64,000 bases of DNA from Luteolibacter luteus (GTDB taxonomy: Bacteria; Verrucomicrobiota; Verrucomicrobiia; Verrucomicrobiales; Akkermansiaceae), in contig NZ_CP051774.1 in NCBI RefSeq assembly GCF_012913485.1, forward strand, positions 2,046,001 to 2,110,000. Direction: 5' to 3'. Below the pieces are notes generated by a model that was not told the DNA's origin, searched no databases, and worked only from the letters and a program-made list of their open reading frames with translations. The first letter of the stretch is position 1; each line of letters starts with the position of its first letter. Shown here one piece after another: positions 40,864 through 45,945 of this stretch. Made by a program: the position numbers and the translations under genes.

Positions 40864-41644
40864 TCAATCAAAGAAGTGGCGACCGATCTTGCTGGCAGGA
40901 GTGCCGTGATCGCTTTCCCAGTAGATGTGGGTCATGACGTCATCAACAGCTGGCGGTTCGCTGGCTTCAGCAAAGGTCACCGACTTCTTAGCCTCCAGCT
41001 TCGCTTCCTCCTTGATCGATTGCGCGCTTTGTTCGTCGAGAATCCCCTCACGGGAAAGTTGTTGCAGCCAAAGGGCAATCGGATCCCGGGAGCCCTTCAT
41101 CATTTCGATCTCCTCTGGCGTCCGGTATTTCTTGAAGTTCGAATCTGCAACGTGCGCTCCGTAGTAACGATAAGTGGGAATTTCCACCACGATCGGACGC
41201 TGCTCCCTGCGGATCTTTTCAAGCGCCCCTCCTACCTCCGCCCGCAGCAATGGGTGTGTGGGCCGCCGCCAAGCCATAGGCACCCCAGAAACGATGCTCC
41301 GGGTCGAAGAGGGACATCGCGCCACCCTTGCCTTTGCAGCAACCGGTGGCCTTCCCATAATGCTCCGCCATGCAGGCATCCATTGACATCCCCGCAGCAA
41401 TGGCGTGCCCGATCCCCCGCCAGCCGCAGATCGTGTGATCCTCGGGACCCATGATCGAGCGAACGCCAACCGGAATCGACTCTTGACCGATATCGGGTAC
41501 GAAGAAGCCTCCCATCTTTCCCCCAGTATAGCACCTCAATCCCTCTAGCTCGAAGCGACGGATGCGGACCATCTGCCGGAACAGGTCGATCTTATCCTCG
41601 GCGGTGAGATCGCGGTTGATGGGGTGCTCGCGGTAGGTGGACAT
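40864..41644 (-). pseudogene. pdhA: Pyruvate dehydrogenase E1 alpha remnant with internal deletion
   Basis: The N-terminal part (ATG at 41644, MSTYREHPINRDLTAEDKID) reads normally to 'DPEHRFWGAYGL' and 'HTPIAAG', then a stop follows after six residues. A second frame takes over near 41220-41240 with 'LEKIRREQRPIVVEIPTYRY' and 'KKYRTPEEIEMMKGSRDPIA' and ends normally at 40864. Family members have about 110-120 more residues between these two segments, including the GDGAxNQG thiamine-diphosphate site, which is absent. So there is a deletion plus a frameshift. An intact copy would be needed elsewhere. No E1 beta or E2 gene is adjacent. Confidence 0.75.
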
Positions 41645-41699
41645 GGGAGCCACCGATTTACTTGCAGGATCCCCTGAGGATTGGCGAGCATGGAGCGCG

Positions 41700-42062
41700 A
41701 TGCCGGAAGACAGCCCGATCCGCCTGCTTTTGTCCGGGGACCTTTCCTTTGGGCCCGGGAAGGCGGAGCTGTTGGAGAAGATCCGTGAGCTTGGCAGCCT
41801 GCAAGAGGCGGCGGGGGCGATGGAAATGTCCTATATGAAGGCGTGGAAGCTGGTGAAGGGCCTCAATGCGCGATTCTGTGAGCCATTGGTGGCGATGCAG
41901 CGAGGCGGCAAGGAGCAGGGCGGCGCGACGCTGACGCCGACGGGCGAGAAGGTGCTGGCGCTGTACCATGAAGCAGTGGCGGCGGCCGAGAAGGCGAGTG
42001 CAGCACCGTTGAGGAAGATGCGCGGCCTGTTAGCCAGCGATGAGACGAATTCATCGGGCTGA
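41700..42062 (+). CDS. ModE-like winged-helix regulator (DNA-binding domain only)
   Basis: A 120-residue protein with the ModE N-terminal fold: 'FGPGKAELLEKIRELGSLQE', 'AAGAMEMSYMKAWKLVKGLN' (recognition helix) and 'RGGKEQGGATLTPTGEKVLA'. E. coli ModE has a second half with molybdate-binding Mop domains; these are absent here, so the protein cannot sense molybdate in the same way. The ATG at 41700 is taken; longer starts overlap the pdhA remnant. It sits just upstream of a ModE-box-like repeat and the molybdate uptake genes, which fixes its role as the likely local regulator. Confidence 0.82.
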   Translation: MPEDSPIRLLLSGDLSFGPGKAELLEKIRELGSLQEAAGAMEMSYMKAWKLVKGLNARFCEPLVAMQRGGKEQGGATLTPTGEKVLALYHEAVAAAEKASAAPLRKMRGLLASDETNSSG

Positions 42063-42077
42063 GCCGCAAATGGCGCT

Positions 42078-42101
42078 CGATATACTTTCCAAAATATATC
42101 G
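42078..42101. promoter_or_regulatory. Inverted repeat resembling a ModE box
   Basis: CGATATA (42078-42084) and TATATCG (42095-42101) are exact reverse complements around a 10-base spacer. ModE sites in other bacteria are palindromes of the CGnTATAT...ATATAnCG kind. It lies 16 bases past the ModE-like gene and 20 bases before the receptor start, where a repressor would block the uptake genes. Confidence 0.6.
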
Positions 42102-42121
42102 GTACTGCTGGTGTGGCGGCG

Positions 42122-44062
42122 ATGAAAGCCTTGCCCCTCCTTTGCCTTGCACCGCTAGCCACCTTCGCCGAGACGCCTGAACTGGGCGAATTGGTGGTGG
42201 AAGCGATGAAGCCCGAGATGACCCAGAAGCTGACGACCGAGGAAGCGCGGGACCTGCAACGCCACAACCTCGCCGAAGCGCTGAGCATCTTGCCCGGGAT
42301 CAGCCTGCAACGGATGGGTGCCCGTGCTGAAACGATGGTGACGGTGCGCGGCTTCGACCTCCGGCAGGTGCCGGTGCTGATCGATGGAATCCCGGTTTAC
42401 GTCCCCTACGATGGCTACGCGGATCTCGGCCGTTTCTCGGTGCCCGAGGCCGCCGAGATCGAGGTGGCCAAGGGCATCAGCCCGGTACTGGCGGGGCCGA
42501 ATACCTTCGGGGGTTTGGTGAACGTCTATACACGCCGCCCGACGGAGAAGCTGGAAGGTGACGTGCATGCGGGTGTTTTCACCGGGGATGGCTGGGAGGC
42601 GGGGCTTTCCGCCGGGGGGCGCGAGGAGAAGTGGTATTGGCAATTCGACCTCGCCTGGATGGAGCAGGACGGCTTCGAGCTTTCCGATGACTTCGTGCCG
42701 CGTCCGACGGAGAATGGCGGGCGCCGCGAAAATTCATGGAGCGAGGATTGGCGCGCCTCCGGCCGCATCGCATGGACGCCCGCACCGGATGACGAGTATG
42801 CGCTGGGGGTGTGGATCCAGCGCGGGGAGAAGGGTACGCCGCCCTACACCGGCTATGATCCGACCGTGCGCGCGCGCTTCTGGAAGTGGCCACAGTGGGA
42901 CAAGGATACCTACTACCTGCTGACGCGCACCGCGATCAATCCGGACACCACGCTGGAGACGAAGGTGCACTATGACCGGCATGAGAACACCTTGGTCGCC
43001 TATGATGATGCGACCTACAGCTCACAGAACCGGCCGTCTTCTTTCACTTCATTCTACGATGACTGGACCGCAGGTGCCTCCGCGACGCTGGAGAACCGCT
43101 CGCTGAAGAACACGCGTATCGCCGCGGCGGTGCACTACAAACGGGATCATCACGAGCAGATGGACATCGGCGCGCCGAAGTTCAGCTTCGAAGATGAGAC
43201 GGCCTCCGTGGGACTGGAAGCCGAGTACAGCTTTCCCTTCGGAAGTTCGGTCACGGCGGGCGTGAGCCACGATTGGCGCGAGGTGCGCGAAGCGATCGAC
43301 ACGAACACAGGCGCTCCGATTTACGGCGGCAAAACCTCGTCATGGAATCCGCAGATCGTGTGGAAGCATGAGTTCAGCGAGAATCTGGAAGGCCATCTGG
43401 GCTATGCTCGCAAGAGCCGCTTCCCGACGATCAAGGACCGCTATTCCTACCGGCTCGGCCAGGCGATCCCAAACCCGAACCTGGATGCGGAAACGGTGGA
43501 TCACATCGACCTCGGTCTCGGTGGGAAGGCCAACGACGGCAATTTCGAATGGGAAGCGGGGCTATTCTACTCGCGGATCGATGATGCGATCCAGCGGGTG
43601 GACAATGTCGCCTTCACCCCGGGTGGCGCGGGTCTCTTCCAGCTCCAGAATGTGGGCGAGGTGGAGCACAAGGGCTTCGAACTGGCGCTAGGAAACAAGT
43701 GGAGCGACTGCATCGAGACCGGCCTGCGCTATGCGTGGATCATGGCGGAGAACCGGACGAACCCGGCGATCCATGTGATCGGCACACCGGAGCATGAGGC
43801 CGCGCTCTTTTCGAAATTCACCATCCTCGACAATTTCCGCCTGATCCCGGCCTTCGTGTGGGCGGACTCCCGCGATGTCAGCAGCACCGGCAAGCGGGTG
43901 GGCATCTATGCGAGCGTGGATGTGAAAGCGGAGGTCGAACTCCCCGGCGATGTGACACTGGGCCTGGGCGTGACCAATCTCTTGGACCGGAATCAACAAT
44001 TGGACGAAGGGTTCCCTGAACCCGGACGCAGCTTCTTCTTCGACGTACGCCATGAATTCTAA
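42122..44062 (+). CDS. TonB-dependent outer-membrane receptor, probably for molybdate or tungstate
   Basis: A 646-residue protein with a signal peptide (MKALPLLCLAPLATFAE), a plug domain at about 30-145 ('RDLQRHNLAEALSILPGISL', 'MVTVRGFDLRQVPVLIDGIP', 'GPNTFGGLVNVYTRRP') and a 22-strand-type barrel ending in a C-terminal Phe (FFFDVRHEF). It is closest in style to siderophore and vitamin B12 receptors. The next three genes overlap or abut it and two are modA and modB, and a ModE-like box precedes it, so the cargo is probably molybdate, tungstate or a complex of them. Substrate assignment is by context only. Confidence 0.88.
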   Translation: MKALPLLCLAPLATFAETPELGELVVEAMKPEMTQKLTTEEARDLQRHNLAEALSILPGISLQRMGARAETMVTVRGFDLRQVPVLIDGIPVYVPYDGYADLGRFSVPEAAEIEVAKGISPVLAGPNTFGGLVNVYTRRPTEKLEGDVHAGVFTGDGWEAGLSAGGREEKWYWQFDLAWMEQDGFELSDDFVPRPTENGGRRENSWSEDWRASGRIAWTPAPDDEYALGVWIQRGEKGTPPYTGYDPTVRARFWKWPQWDKDTYYLLTRTAINPDTTLETKVHYDRHENTLVAYDDATYSSQNRPSSFTSFYDDWTAGASATLENRSLKNTRIAAAVHYKRDHHEQMDIGAPKFSFEDETASVGLEAEYSFPFGSSVTAGVSHDWREVREAIDTNTGAPIYGGKTSSWNPQIVWKHEFSENLEGHLGYARKSRFPTIKDRYSYRLGQAIPNPNLDAETVDHIDLGLGGKANDGNFEWEAGLFYSRIDDAIQRVDNVAFTPGGAGLFQLQNVGEVEHKGFELALGNKWSDCIETGLRYAWIMAENRTNPAIHVIGTPEHEAALFSKFTILDNFRLIPAFVWADSRDVSSTGKRVGIYASVDVKAEVELPGDVTLGLGVTNLLDRNQQLDEGFPEPGRSFFFDVRHEF

Positions 44063-44543
44063 ACTCGCCCCTCTAATCGCACTCGTCTGCCTGATGGTCC
44101 CGCTGGCCGCGGAGCCTGTGGTCCGCATCCACGATGGCAGCGCCTGGAAGGAAATCGACGACGCCGCGTGGCAGAAGCTGCCGCGTGCCGAAATCACGGC
44201 CAAGGCGCGCGATGGCACCGACAAGAAGTTCTCCGGCGTGCCCTTCGCCGAGATCCTGAAGCTGGCCGGGGCCCCGGCCGGCAATGCGATCCGCGGGCCG
44301 GAAATGAACCGGGTGGTGCTACTGACCGCAGCGGATGGCTACCAGGTGTCCTTTTCCCTGGCCGAACTGGATGAGAGCTTCCGGAAGCAGAATATCATCC
44401 TGGCCGATCAGGTGGATGGAAAGGCACTGGATGAATTCGAAGGATCGCGCATGGTGGTGTCAGGCGATGACCTGCGCCACTCGCGCTGGATCCGTCAGGT
44501 CAAACAGATTATCCTCACTCGTCCCATCATCCCCGCGCCATGA
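44052..44543 (+). CDS. Secreted SUOX-fold (oxidoreductase molybdopterin-binding) small protein
   Basis: A 163-residue protein with a signal peptide (KLAPLIALVCLMVPLAAE). The mature part resembles the oxidoreductase molybdopterin-binding fold: 'WQKLPRAEITAKARDGTDKK', 'FSGVPFAEILKLAGAP', 'NRVVLLTAADGYQVSFSLAE' and 'LDEFEGSRMVVSGDDLRHSR'. The Cys that binds molybdenum in sulfite oxidases is not seen, so catalysis is doubtful; binding of a molybdenum species is a guess. The gene starts 11 bases inside the receptor gene and ends inside modA (ATGA), which ties it firmly to the uptake operon. Confidence 0.75.
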   Translation: MNSKLAPLIALVCLMVPLAAEPVVRIHDGSAWKEIDDAAWQKLPRAEITAKARDGTDKKFSGVPFAEILKLAGAPAGNAIRGPEMNRVVLLTAADGYQVSFSLAELDESFRKQNIILADQVDGKALDEFEGSRMVVSGDDLRHSRWIRQVKQIILTRPIIPAP

Positions 44544-45280
44544 AACGCACGATATTCCAGTCCTTCCTCGCCCTCGGGCTGGGGCTCGCCGCACAGGCCG
44601 AGGAAATCCGCGTGGCCGCCGCCGCCAGCCTGGCCGAGGCGATCACGGAGATTTCGACCGCCTATCAGCAAGAGACCGGAAACAAGGCCACGCCGGTCTT
44701 CGCCGGATCAAACGTGCTGGCCCGGCAGATCGAGGAGGGCGCGCCGATCGATGTCTTCGTTTCCGCCGACGAGGCGACGATGGAGAAGGTCGAGAAGGCG
44801 AAGCTGGTGAAGGAGCCCGTAAAGCTGCTGACCAACACGCTGGTGGTGGTGGTGCCCGAGGATTCCGAGGCCAAGGTGGGCTCCGCCGCGGACCTGGCGA
44901 ATCTCAAGAAGATCGCGATCGGGGATCCGGCCGCGGTGCCTGCCGGTGTCTATGCGAAGGCTTGGCTGACGAAGGCAGGACTGTGGGAGAAGCTGCAGGA
45001 GAAATTCATCGGCAGCGAGAACGTGCGTGCAGCCTTGGCCGCAGTGGAGGCAGGCAATGCCGATGCGGCGATCGTTTACAAGACGGACGCAGCAATTTCC
45101 AAGAAGGTGAAGGTGGCGTGGTCGGTACCGGAAGGTGAGGCTCCGCCGATCATCTATCCGGTGGCGGTGTGCAGCGGCAGCAAGCATGCCGCGGAGGCCG
45201 AGCGGTTCACAAAGTTCCTGAAGTCGGAGAAGGCATCCACCATCTTCAAATCGCGCGGCTTCGGGTTGAAGGCTGAATGA
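44540..45280 (+). CDS. modA: Molybdate ABC transporter substrate-binding protein
   Basis: A 246-residue periplasmic binding protein for molybdate/tungstate. The signal peptide is MKRTIFQSFLALGLGLAAQA. Family landmarks: 'VAAAASLAEAITEISTAYQQ', 'FAGSNVLARQIEEGAPIDVF', 'NTLVVVVPEDSEAKV', 'IAIGDPAAVPAGVYAKAWL' and 'DAAIVYKTDA' with Ser, Ala, Val and Tyr ligands for the oxyanion. The start overlaps the previous stop and the stop overlaps modB (both ATGA). It would receive the anion from the outer-membrane receptor and pass it to ModB. Confidence 0.94.
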   Translation: MKRTIFQSFLALGLGLAAQAEEIRVAAAASLAEAITEISTAYQQETGNKATPVFAGSNVLARQIEEGAPIDVFVSADEATMEKVEKAKLVKEPVKLLTNTLVVVVPEDSEAKVGSAADLANLKKIAIGDPAAVPAGVYAKAWLTKAGLWEKLQEKFIGSENVRAALAAVEAGNADAAIVYKTDAAISKKVKVAWSVPEGEAPPIIYPVAVCSGSKHAAEAERFTKFLKSEKASTIFKSRGFGLKAE

Positions 45281-45945
45281 GTCCGGAGGATATCAGGCTG
45301 ATCATTTTCACGCTGGGCGTTTCCGCCCTGGCGGTGGCGGTTTCCCTGCCCTTCGGGCTGGCGCTGGGCTGGGTGCTGGCGCGCAAGCAGTGGCCGGGGA
45401 AGGCTCTGGTGGAGACCTTCGTGATGTTGCCCCTGGTGCTGCCGCCGGTGGTGACAGGTCTGCTTCTGCTGAAGCTCTTCGGGAAGAAGGGGCCGCTGGC
45501 AGGCTTGCTGGAGAGCACTGGCTTCGAGGTGATCTTCACGTGGAAGGCCGTGGTGCTGGCGCTGGCGGTGATGGCATTTCCGCTCTTGCTGCGGTGCATC
45601 CGCACGGCCTTCGAGGAGGTGCCGCGGCACTTGGAGGAGGCGGCGGCAACGCTTGGGAAGACGCCGTGGCAGGTCTTCGTGCGGGTGAGCATTCCCCTGG
45701 CGAGACGCGGGATCGCGGGCGGGCTGGTGCTCGGGTTTGCGAGGGCGCTGGGAGAATTCGGCGCGACGATGATGGTGGCGGGATTGATCCCCGGGGTGAC
45801 GGAGACCTTGCCGCTGGCGATCTACCGGAGCTTCCACGCGGGGGACGACTCGCGGGTGTGGATGCTGGCAGGTGTCTCGGCGGTGATTGCGTTTGTGGCG
45901 CTGTGGATGGCGGGGAGGCTGAACAAGGGACGGCATCCCTTGTAG
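45277..45945 (+). CDS. modB: Molybdate ABC transporter permease
   Basis: A 222-residue inner-membrane permease with five or six helices. The coupling EAA loop is present as 'EEAAATLGKTPWQVFVRVSI' followed by 'PLARRGIAGGLVLGFARALG', and the N-terminal half holds 'FVMLPLVLPPVVTGLLLLKL'. It overlaps modA by four bases. No modC ATPase follows; the next genes are on the other strand. The ATPase must come from elsewhere, possibly a shared one. Confidence 0.94.
   Translation: MSPEDIRLIIFTLGVSALAVAVSLPFGLALGWVLARKQWPGKALVETFVMLPLVLPPVVTGLLLLKLFGKKGPLAGLLESTGFEVIFTWKAVVLALAVMAFPLLLRCIRTAFEEVPRHLEEAAATLGKTPWQVFVRVSIPLARRGIAGGLVLGFARALGEFGATMMVAGLIPGVTETLPLAIYRSFHAGDDSRVWMLAGVSAVIAFVALWMAGRLNKGRHPL

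Follow-up and report, generated by a model that had tools for sequence, protein, structure and literature searches.

Gene content of the locus

Within the window, a stretch of 64,000 nucleotides of Luteolibacter luteus DNA, five genes and one operator-like site follow one another. The first gene (41700 to 42062, plus strand), running from the ATG at 41700 to the TGA at 42062, encodes a ModE-like transcription regulator of 120 amino acids with a helix-turn-helix (HTH) domain only. It is followed by a ModE-box-like operator, CGATATACTTTCCAAAATATATCG (42078 to 42101, no strand assigned), which lies 20 bases 5' of the ATG at 42122 of a gene for a TonB-dependent outer-membrane receptor of 646 amino acids (42122 to 44062, plus strand). 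The remaining three genes, also on the plus strand, encode a small secreted protein with a predicted SUOX fold and without catalytic cysteine (44052 to 44543), the periplasmic molybdate-binding protein ModA (44540 to 45280) and the molybdate ABC permease ModB (45277 to 45945). All six elements lie where the sequence-only reading had placed them on the plus strand, and the overlaps of 4 to 11 bases that it had claimed from the receptor onward measure 11 bases between the receptor and SUOX-fold genes, 4 between the SUOX-fold gene and modA, and 4 between modA and modB. The identical five genes in identical order are found in a locus of the same genus (L030), in Haloferula sp. BvORR071 (L042) and in Luteolibacter pohnpeiensis (L043). 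The 11-base overlap between receptor and SUOX-fold genes is common to these three loci and the window, while the later junctions differ.

A clade of receptors linked to molybdenum genes

Profile searches recovered both domains of a TonB-dependent receptor, the plug (PF07715, 61 bits, E 1e-16, cut-off 23.9) and the TonB_dep_Rec beta-barrel (PF00593, 109 bits, E 5e-31, cut-off 27), and no specific NCBIfam family above its cut-off. The 22 matches to NCBIfam receptor families (B12, siderophore, heme, PqqU and others) are all below cut-off, the best reaching 92 bits against 317. The AlphaFold2 model of the receptor (pLDDT 88) resembles solved TonB receptors, with OprC as the top solved structure, and the nearest sequences in a profile search of the PDB include CirA, BtuB and the ferric enterobactin receptor. 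The window receptor shares plug and barrel with BtuB, CirA and FepA/PfeA, but it falls in a separate clade with conserved residues of its own (for example R68, E70, R104, E145 and R440, with K431 and K438 conserved as well) and lies in a molybdenum-linked context. OprC and MnoT (copper and manganese, respectively) are precedents for metal ions entering through TonB receptors, although both handle cations; a passage of PMC10482370 describes MnoT as a TonB-dependent manganese uptake receptor that works with a secreted manganese-binding protein. The likeness to the OprC fold alone says nothing of the substrate. The window operon encodes no TonB system, and an ExbD gene is found within 8 kb of the receptor in 10 of the 44 members of its clade.

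This clade (support 1.00) groups receptors from Verrucomicrobiota, Proteobacteria and two Desulfobacteraceae. We scored as molybdenum markers a gene for a ModE-type HTH protein, for ModA or for an XRE-PBP_like regulator within 8 kb of the receptor, or a box, allowing up to one mismatch, at the start of the receptor. Overall, 40 of the 44 clade members have a marker (ModE-type HTH in 25, ModA in 13, XRE-PBP_like in 4 and box in 17), and the four without are L062, on a 4.8-kb contig, L071, L077 and L098; loci on identical contigs were counted once, and the counts are not independent, since L072 and L073 are separate sites on a single contig and Pandoraea contributes four loci. Of 21 loci of other TonB receptors that served as controls, just 2 have a marker, in each case a ModA-like match alone. 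None of seven other receptors of the same genome has a marker, and neither do 12 of the 14 loci of another receptor family, two of the 14 being contigs shorter than 7 kb. With relatedness uncorrected, Fisher's test returned P-values of 1.3e-10 for any marker, 3.9e-6 for ModE-type genes (none in the 21 control loci) and 5.5e-4 for the box (also none). Among the more distant, truncated or unplaced receptors outside the clade the link is weaker, with a marker in 13 of 31; eleven of the 31 had been left out of the tree (L066, L091, L093, L099, L102, L103, L109, L110, L111 and the two short ones L068 and L104) and may in part belong inside.

Marker counts come from a six-frame recount with rebuilt HTH and SUOX models. 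Gene orders follow an earlier labeling, whose models had absorbed fused domains, so that TOBE-only proteins were labeled ModE and a precorrin-type methylase in L092 was labeled SUOX. The HMMs for ModE, ModA and other proteins were seeded from the loci themselves, and samples were checked against NCBIfam. A full ModE (HTH plus Mop) lies directly upstream of the receptor in L067, L068, L069 and L081; the one in L067 is above the Mop cut-off and scores 97.1 with ModE_repress against 98.5. In Oryzomicrobium (L060) the order is ModE-ModA-ModB-ModC-receptor, with ModE, ModA and ModC over cut-off, and in Derxia gummosa (L107) it is modE-SUOX-modA-modB-modC-modD-receptor, with ModE_repress (98.7) and ModD over their cut-offs. 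The sequence-only reading had proposed a dedicated receptor for molybdenum-type uptake, and had named homologs consistently sitting beside other substrate systems as the observation that would speak against it. The neighborhoods, 40 of 44 against 2 of 21, do not have that pattern and support the proposal, while the cargo is still something that we infer.

Regulator and operator box

The regulator matches TIGR00637 (ModE_repress) with an E-value of 2.5e-17 and 62.8 bits, below the cut-off of 98.5, and Pfam and NCBIfam profile searches with its 120 amino acids found no Mop/TOBE match. On these profiles it is a ModE-like relative rather than a ModE by the curated cut-off, and it carries no known molybdate-binding domain. 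According to a passage of PMC545781, two Desulfovibrio species and D. psychrophila have genes that encode the DNA-binding domain of ModE alone. In 20 of the 44 clade members, the receptor is preceded on the same strand, at a distance of at most 400 bp, by a ModE-type HTH gene. Judging from its family and position, the ModE-like protein is a probable molybdenum-responsive repressor of the operon.

The ModE-box-like repeat of the sequence-only reading is indeed present, as the palindrome CGATATA-N10-TATATCG at 42078-42101. With the pattern CGNTATA-N10-TATANCG, it is the sole zero-mismatch place in the 6.4-Mb genome, and there is one other place with one mismatch. Since the same pattern read backwards returns equally many matches with at most one mismatch (two per strand), the count within the genome alone proves nothing. 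Searched within the window, a pattern with 8-base arms matches here with one mismatch, with 0.26 matches expected at up to three mismatches. Across loci, a ModE box with no more than one mismatch precedes 14 of 70 receptors (64 of these upstream regions had at least 200 bases). Among the remaining gene starts of these loci the frequency is 11 of 785, and among shuffles it is 3 of 7,000. The motif is also detectable upstream of receptors in other phyla, and in Pandoraea, Solimonas and Hydrocarboniphaga it precedes receptors that have neither a ModE-type gene nor ModA within 8 kb.

These upstream controls, together with the control receptors (none of seven in the same genome and 2 of 14 in the other family, ModA-like only), led us to reject a chance neighborhood. 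They also bear on whether the receptor serves an iron siderophore, cobalamin or heme and lies beside modAB by accident. Such a role would fit the siderophore, heme and B12 models among the 22 matches, each far below cut-off, and the FecCD and BtuF neighbors of some relatives. We hold it to be very improbable, given the markers in the clade as compared to the control loci and the boxes that precede receptors even where ModE-type genes and ModA are lacking nearby. Some relatives adjoin FecCD-type transporters, DUF364 proteins and SAM methyltransferases, with DUF364/FecCD genes beside clade receptors in L054 and L078, and neighbors of this kind would fit a metal chelate as well.

ModA, ModB and the search for ModC

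ModA scores 199 bits with TIGR01256 (cut-off 62.5) and ModB 215 bits with TIGR02141 (cut-off 182.6), and each is the sole match over cut-off in its genome; ModA passes in 9 of 14 control genomes. At what we take to be the numbering of the molybdate-contact positions of E. coli ModA, all five residues (S12, S39, A125, V152 and Y170) are as in the E. coli protein. The locus thus resembles the ModE-ModABC system of E. coli in the contact residues of ModA, in ModB, in the ModE-type HTH and in the E. coli-type ModE box. It differs by the added receptor and SUOX-fold protein, by the lack of modC beside modB and by a regulator without Mop domains.

As a rule, systems with ModA and ModE accept tungstate as well as molybdate, and tungstate could accordingly be the true cargo, with molybdate a bystander. 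We consider this improbable, as the molybdate models far outscore WtpA, WtpB and TupB on the window ModA and ModB; the contact residues point the same way, although they do not exclude tungstate.

Inspection of the gene order in the window revealed no modC beside modB, a point that the sequence-only reading leaves unmentioned, and no ModC over cut-off is found in the whole genome, where the best match has 201 bits against a cut-off of 285. This cut-off is strict, being passed by 1 of 14 control genomes and by 2 of 60 genomes of the receptor family, and hence a loss of ModC is not proved. The best 3 of 75 matches to the ModC model belong to clusters that, from gene order and a reading of the sequences, resemble a spermidine/putrescine importer, a sulfate importer and a third ABC importer, and none of these three was taken for a hidden modC. 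Because the nearest paralogs of ModB are two permeases of the sulfate-like cluster (G000:C1:4.79 Mb), our guess is that the ATPase of that cluster may be its partner.

The SUOX-fold protein and the form of the cargo

The SUOX-fold protein scores 22.0 bits with PF00174, just below the cut-off of 24, and its predicted fold is clear (pLDDT 87). When its model was searched with Foldseek, PruR pterin-binding proteins ranked first among solved structures, while in VIA-align the best Z-scores put sulfite oxidases level (17.2, and 16.5 for PruR). The sole cysteine, residue 13, lies by eye in the signal peptide. The molybdenum-ligating cysteine of SUOX-type molybdoenzymes is therefore missing from the protein, and for this reason we set aside as unlikely that it is a molybdoenzyme. 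In the proteobacterial relatives L064, L065, L070 and L107, the SUOX-fold protein has, by eye, a cysteine near the usual place.

A passage of PMC13259868 defines PruR by a SUOX fold, about 170 amino acids and no catalytic cysteine, and the window protein agrees in all three as well as in its secretion signal, seen by eye. It differs from PruR in being encoded in a molybdenum operon, with the receptor and modA as neighbors and no DcpA or DTB sensor kinase gene beside it, and in matching sulfite oxidases equally well. Ten aligned proteins show an invariant Y97 and a near-invariant W146, which may be compared to Tyr104 and Trp160 of the PruR pterin site; no single-sequence alignment to PruR was obtained, and the N-terminal profile alignment reaches only chain position 87 of 7kos, leaving these residues unplaced. 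The predicted structure makes the protein a candidate periplasmic pterin- or molybdenum-binding protein.

The present evidence does not distinguish free molybdate, tungstate and a chelate. As a special case of molybdenum acquisition, the receptor could take up molybdenum or tungsten bound to a metallophore, for instance of catecholate, flavin-like or pterin-like type, rather than the free oxyanion. The chelate would be split in the periplasm with the help of the SUOX-fold protein before ModA takes over the oxyanion, and we give this special case slightly less than an even chance. It is consistent with CirA, BtuB and the ferric enterobactin receptor being among the nearest PDB sequences, with the resemblance of the SUOX-fold protein to PruR, with the FecCD and DUF364 neighbors of relatives, and with methyltransferase genes 3' of the receptor in the MTase-MEM355-ExbBD subclade. 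In a passage of PMC2954201, the authors connect the DUF364 family with genes for molybdate/tungstate transport and with possible flavin or pterin chelators. On the other hand, the surroundings of the window operon, which has ModAB and no DUF364, showed no gene for chelator biosynthesis, and the top fold match, in itself no guide to substrate, is titled a copper transporter. More specifically, and in our opinion unlikely, the clade may import a molybdenum-pterin or small organic molybdenum complex, either a molybdophore or a scavenged molybdopterin-type compound, from which a PruR/SUOX-fold acceptor would hand the metal to ModA or to FecCD-type pumps. If true, this would be a TonB-driven route of metal-pterin salvage common to several phyla.

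A probable molybdenum-acquisition operon with its own outer-membrane step

Taken as a whole, the locus is quite likely a molybdenum-acquisition operon with its own energized outer-membrane step, in which the receptor, judging by sequence and context, probably serves to bring in molybdenum. The sequence-only reading gains from the molybdenum link of the clade and has to be tempered on several points: a ModC was not recognized, the regulator scores below cut-off and consists of the HTH domain only, the SUOX-fold protein is unlikely to be a molybdoenzyme, and of the 31 receptors outside the clade just 13 have a marker. By analogy with E. coli ModE, the ModE-like protein would quit the box upstream of the receptor gene when molybdenum is scarce, and the operon would be transcribed. 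The TonB-powered receptor would then let molybdenum into the periplasm in the form of molybdate or perhaps of a chelate, with tungstate as another potential cargo, and there ModA, with its five molybdate-holding residues, would capture the oxyanion. Fold and position suggest for the SUOX-fold protein a place between receptor and ModA, where its probable ligand would be pterin-like or carry molybdenum. ModB would move the oxyanion across the inner membrane, driven by an ATPase from another locus; the most plausible candidate is the one in the sulfate-type cluster.

Molybdate is usually assumed to enter the periplasm via general porins. Among the matches listed from the open-access literature, no title or abstract start names molybdate or tungstate as the substrate of a TonB-dependent receptor. 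A dedicated outer-membrane molybdate step is described for P. aeruginosa, where a secreted ModA acts with the outer-membrane protein IcmP (PMC11734730); there ModA is secreted by the T6SS and the outer-membrane protein is a different one, the passage naming no TonB receptor. If our reading is true, many bacteria spend energy on moving molybdenum across the outer membrane via a conserved, ModE-controlled TonB receptor, and scarcity of molybdenum, or its occurrence in bound form, would shape those processes in nature that depend on molybdoenzymes, among them nitrogen fixation and the use of nitrate. The analysis yields a family of genes with its operator motif, sequenced hosts (Luteolibacter, Haloferula and Derxia) and a likely annotation for those receptors that no specific NCBIfam model covers. 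The genome of the window, with its single ModA, encodes one MoeA and has three PF00384 frames, a family that also covers NuoG.

Operon structure and genomic setting

The genome of Luteolibacter luteus is a single contig of 6.4 Mb (97.6% complete), and the window corresponds to G000:C1:2046001-2110000 (own genome, contig 1). On its forward strand, a gene for a ModE-like HTH protein (41700-42062, below the curated cut-off) is followed by the palindrome CGATATA-N10-TATATCG (42078-42101), a TonB-dependent receptor (42122-44062, both Pfam domains passing), a SUOX-fold secreted protein (44052-44543, family score below the cut-off), ModA (44540-45280) and ModB (45277-45945), the last two passing their curated cut-offs. 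The sequence-only reading had every junction from the receptor onward overlapping by 4 to 11 bases, and our measurements of 11, 4 and 4 bases agree with it.

We searched the whole genome for further molybdenum genes. The ModA and ModB of the operon are the only ones recognised (one each over the cut-off). One MoeA is present, and three frames match PF00384, a family that includes NuoG, so that not all of them need be molybdoenzymes. None of the ATPases exceeds the ModC cut-off, which is strict: it was passed in only 1 of 14 control genomes (ModA in 9 of 14) and in 2 of 60 genomes of the receptor family. The three top-scoring ATPases in this search appear to be members of other transporter clusters.

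A pyruvate dehydrogenase E1-alpha-like gene, recognised by eye, runs divergently to the ModE-like gene (40864-41653, reverse strand) and is split into two overlapping frames, one of 144 amino acids and the other part of a 201-amino-acid ORF. Its middle part is apparently missing, and it looks like a decayed gene.

The putative ModE box

The palindrome resembles the Escherichia coli ModE consensus, given as atCGnTATATA-N6-TATATAnCGat (PMC545781). It is the sole place in the genome that matches CGNTATA-N10-TATANCG exactly; one mismatch adds a single further place, a stringency at which the reversed pattern is equally frequent. Given its position 20 bases before the receptor ATG, a repressor could act there.

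We scanned 70 named loci with receptor relatives, from 300 bases before to 50 bases after the receptor start. The exact box was found at 8 of the 70 receptors, compared with 1 of 785 starts of other genes at these loci and none of 7000 shuffles; with at most one mismatch, the counts were 14 of 70, 11 of 785 and 3 of 7000, respectively. The box also stands at several receptors, for example in Pandoraea, Solimonas and Hydrocarboniphaga, that show neither a ModE-type gene nor ModA up to 8 kb away; the link between receptor and molybdenum is therefore supported by more than gene order.

A receptor clade in molybdenum context

At an E-value of 1e-40, a protein search across 288 genomes of the phylum found relatives of the receptor in 12, own genome included. 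The nearest named ones are those of Haloferula sp. BvORR071 (72%) and Luteolibacter pohnpeiensis (60%). The 70 loci came from a profile scan of named genomes and lie in Verrucomicrobiota, Alpha-, Beta- and Gammaproteobacteria, Desulfobacterota-type genomes and a few other lineages. We built a tree of 64 of the 75 distinct receptors together with BtuB, CirA, FepA and seven further receptors from the own genome. In this tree, 44 receptors form one clade with support 1.00, composed of verrucomicrobial and proteobacterial sequences plus two from Desulfobacteraceae (L077 and L079). Support is 0.77 for all 64 receptors together and 0.98 for 63 of them.

Neighbourhoods were counted by comparing rebuilt models with six-frame ORFs within 8 kb of each receptor. 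Within the clade, a ModE-type HTH gene occurs in 25 of 44 loci (20 of them on the same strand and at most 400 bases upstream of the receptor), ModA in 13, a SUOX-type gene in 15, a regulator combining XRE-HTH and PBP_like in 4 (PF12727 confirmed in locus L037) and the box, allowing one mismatch, in 17. Overall, 40 of the 44 receptors have ModE, ModA, the XRE-PBP_like regulator or the box. Such markers accompany 13 of the 31 receptors outside the clade, which are more distant, truncated or unplaced, and none of seven further receptors encoded in the L. luteus genome. Another receptor family of the class, represented by 14 loci (two on short contigs), gave a ModA-like match in two and neither a ModE-type gene nor a box. 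The difference between 40 of 44 and 2 of 21 has a P-value of 1.3e-10 (Fisher's test), with relatedness left uncorrected.

In Oryzomicrobium (L060) the gene order is ModE, ModA, ModB, ModC, receptor, with ModE, ModA and ModC over their cut-offs; in Derxia gummosa (L107) it is ModE, SUOX, ModA, ModB, ModC, ModD, receptor, with ModE_repress at 98.7 against a cut-off of 98.5 and ModD also over its NCBIfam cut-off. In a Lysobacteraceae genome (L058), ModE, receptor and SUOX are divergent from ModABC. Locus L039 (7489-10632, reverse strand) encodes ModE-like and SUOX proteins 68% and 64% identical to those of the window around a receptor of just 32% identity; judging from these identities, the receptor may have been swapped within a retained cassette.

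A Kiritimatiellae MAG and related genomes share a conserved block of ModE, receptor, methyltransferase, membrane protein, ExbB and ExbD (L033 4426-10335, reverse strand; also L050, L052, L053, L056 and L059), which recurs in L071, where the ModE gene was not found. Pfam identified TonB in L033; the 355-amino-acid membrane protein could be assigned to no family in Pfam or NCBIfam. A di-haem oxidoreductase (PF06537) comes after the receptor in a group of loci, most of them proteobacterial; between the two stands either a binding protein (SBP_bac_6; L046 10989-13837, L061 11071-13664) or an unnamed protein (L055 10992-12781, L067 10974-12724). This arrangement suggests a periplasmic redox step.

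The SUOX-fold protein

The model of the SUOX-fold protein (pLDDT 87) retrieved PruR pterin-binding proteins as best Foldseek matches, one of them with neopterin, ahead of sulfite oxidases. This ranking is not decisive, because a second aligner placed chicken sulfite oxidase (Z 17.2) and PruR (Z 16.5) about level. The protein has no cysteine outside its signal peptide, and PruR proteins are likewise described as having no molybdenum-ligating cysteine (PMC13259868). A pterin-binding role would fit this likeness.

Some Desulfobacterota-type relatives carry, next to the receptor, a fusion of a SUOX domain with a tetrapyrrole methylase domain (TP_methylase, PF00590; L088 8294-10072, L101 7185-8846, L077 10823-12736). 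By eye, the L077 fusion has a signal-like stretch near its N-terminus, and its methylase domain may therefore be extracytoplasmic and serve for binding.

The receptor and its probable cargo

The receptor model (pLDDT 88) is closest in fold to OprC, whose structure title names a copper transporter, and then to siderophore and B12 receptors; by sequence profile CirA and BtuB are closest, and none of the NCBIfam receptor models was passed. R68, E70, R81, R104, E145, K261, K438 and R440 are among the residues that 85% or more of the clade conserve and that no more than 3 of 10 other receptors share; the basic ones would suit an anionic cargo.

Most likely, a molybdenum species would enter through the receptor driven by TonB, be captured by ModA and then cross by way of ModB, which would work with an ATPase from another locus; the operon would be repressed by the ModE-type regulator. 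The cargo could be free molybdate, tungstate or a chelate. A chelate or pterin stays viable because DUF364 has been tied by its authors to genes for molybdate/tungstate transport and to flavins or pterins as possible chelators (PMC2954201). In Opitutaceae EW11 (L054, apparently the same contig as L037), an XRE-PBP_like regulator, receptor, DUF364, FecCD permease with ATPase and binding protein, TrmO_N and CobW lie together. We observed this set with a second ABC ATPase in L054/L037 and L078, as a candidate cluster for uptake of a molybdenum or tungsten chelate.

Open-access titles and abstract openings among the matches listed named no TonB-dependent receptor for molybdate or tungstate. The receptor type itself is known, and we infer that the clade represents a new, molybdenum-type, cargo class. 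For the outer-membrane step, Pseudomonas aeruginosa is described as using secreted ModA and IcmP for molybdate (PMC11734730), and a TonB receptor for Mn is described in Burkholderia (PMC10482370).
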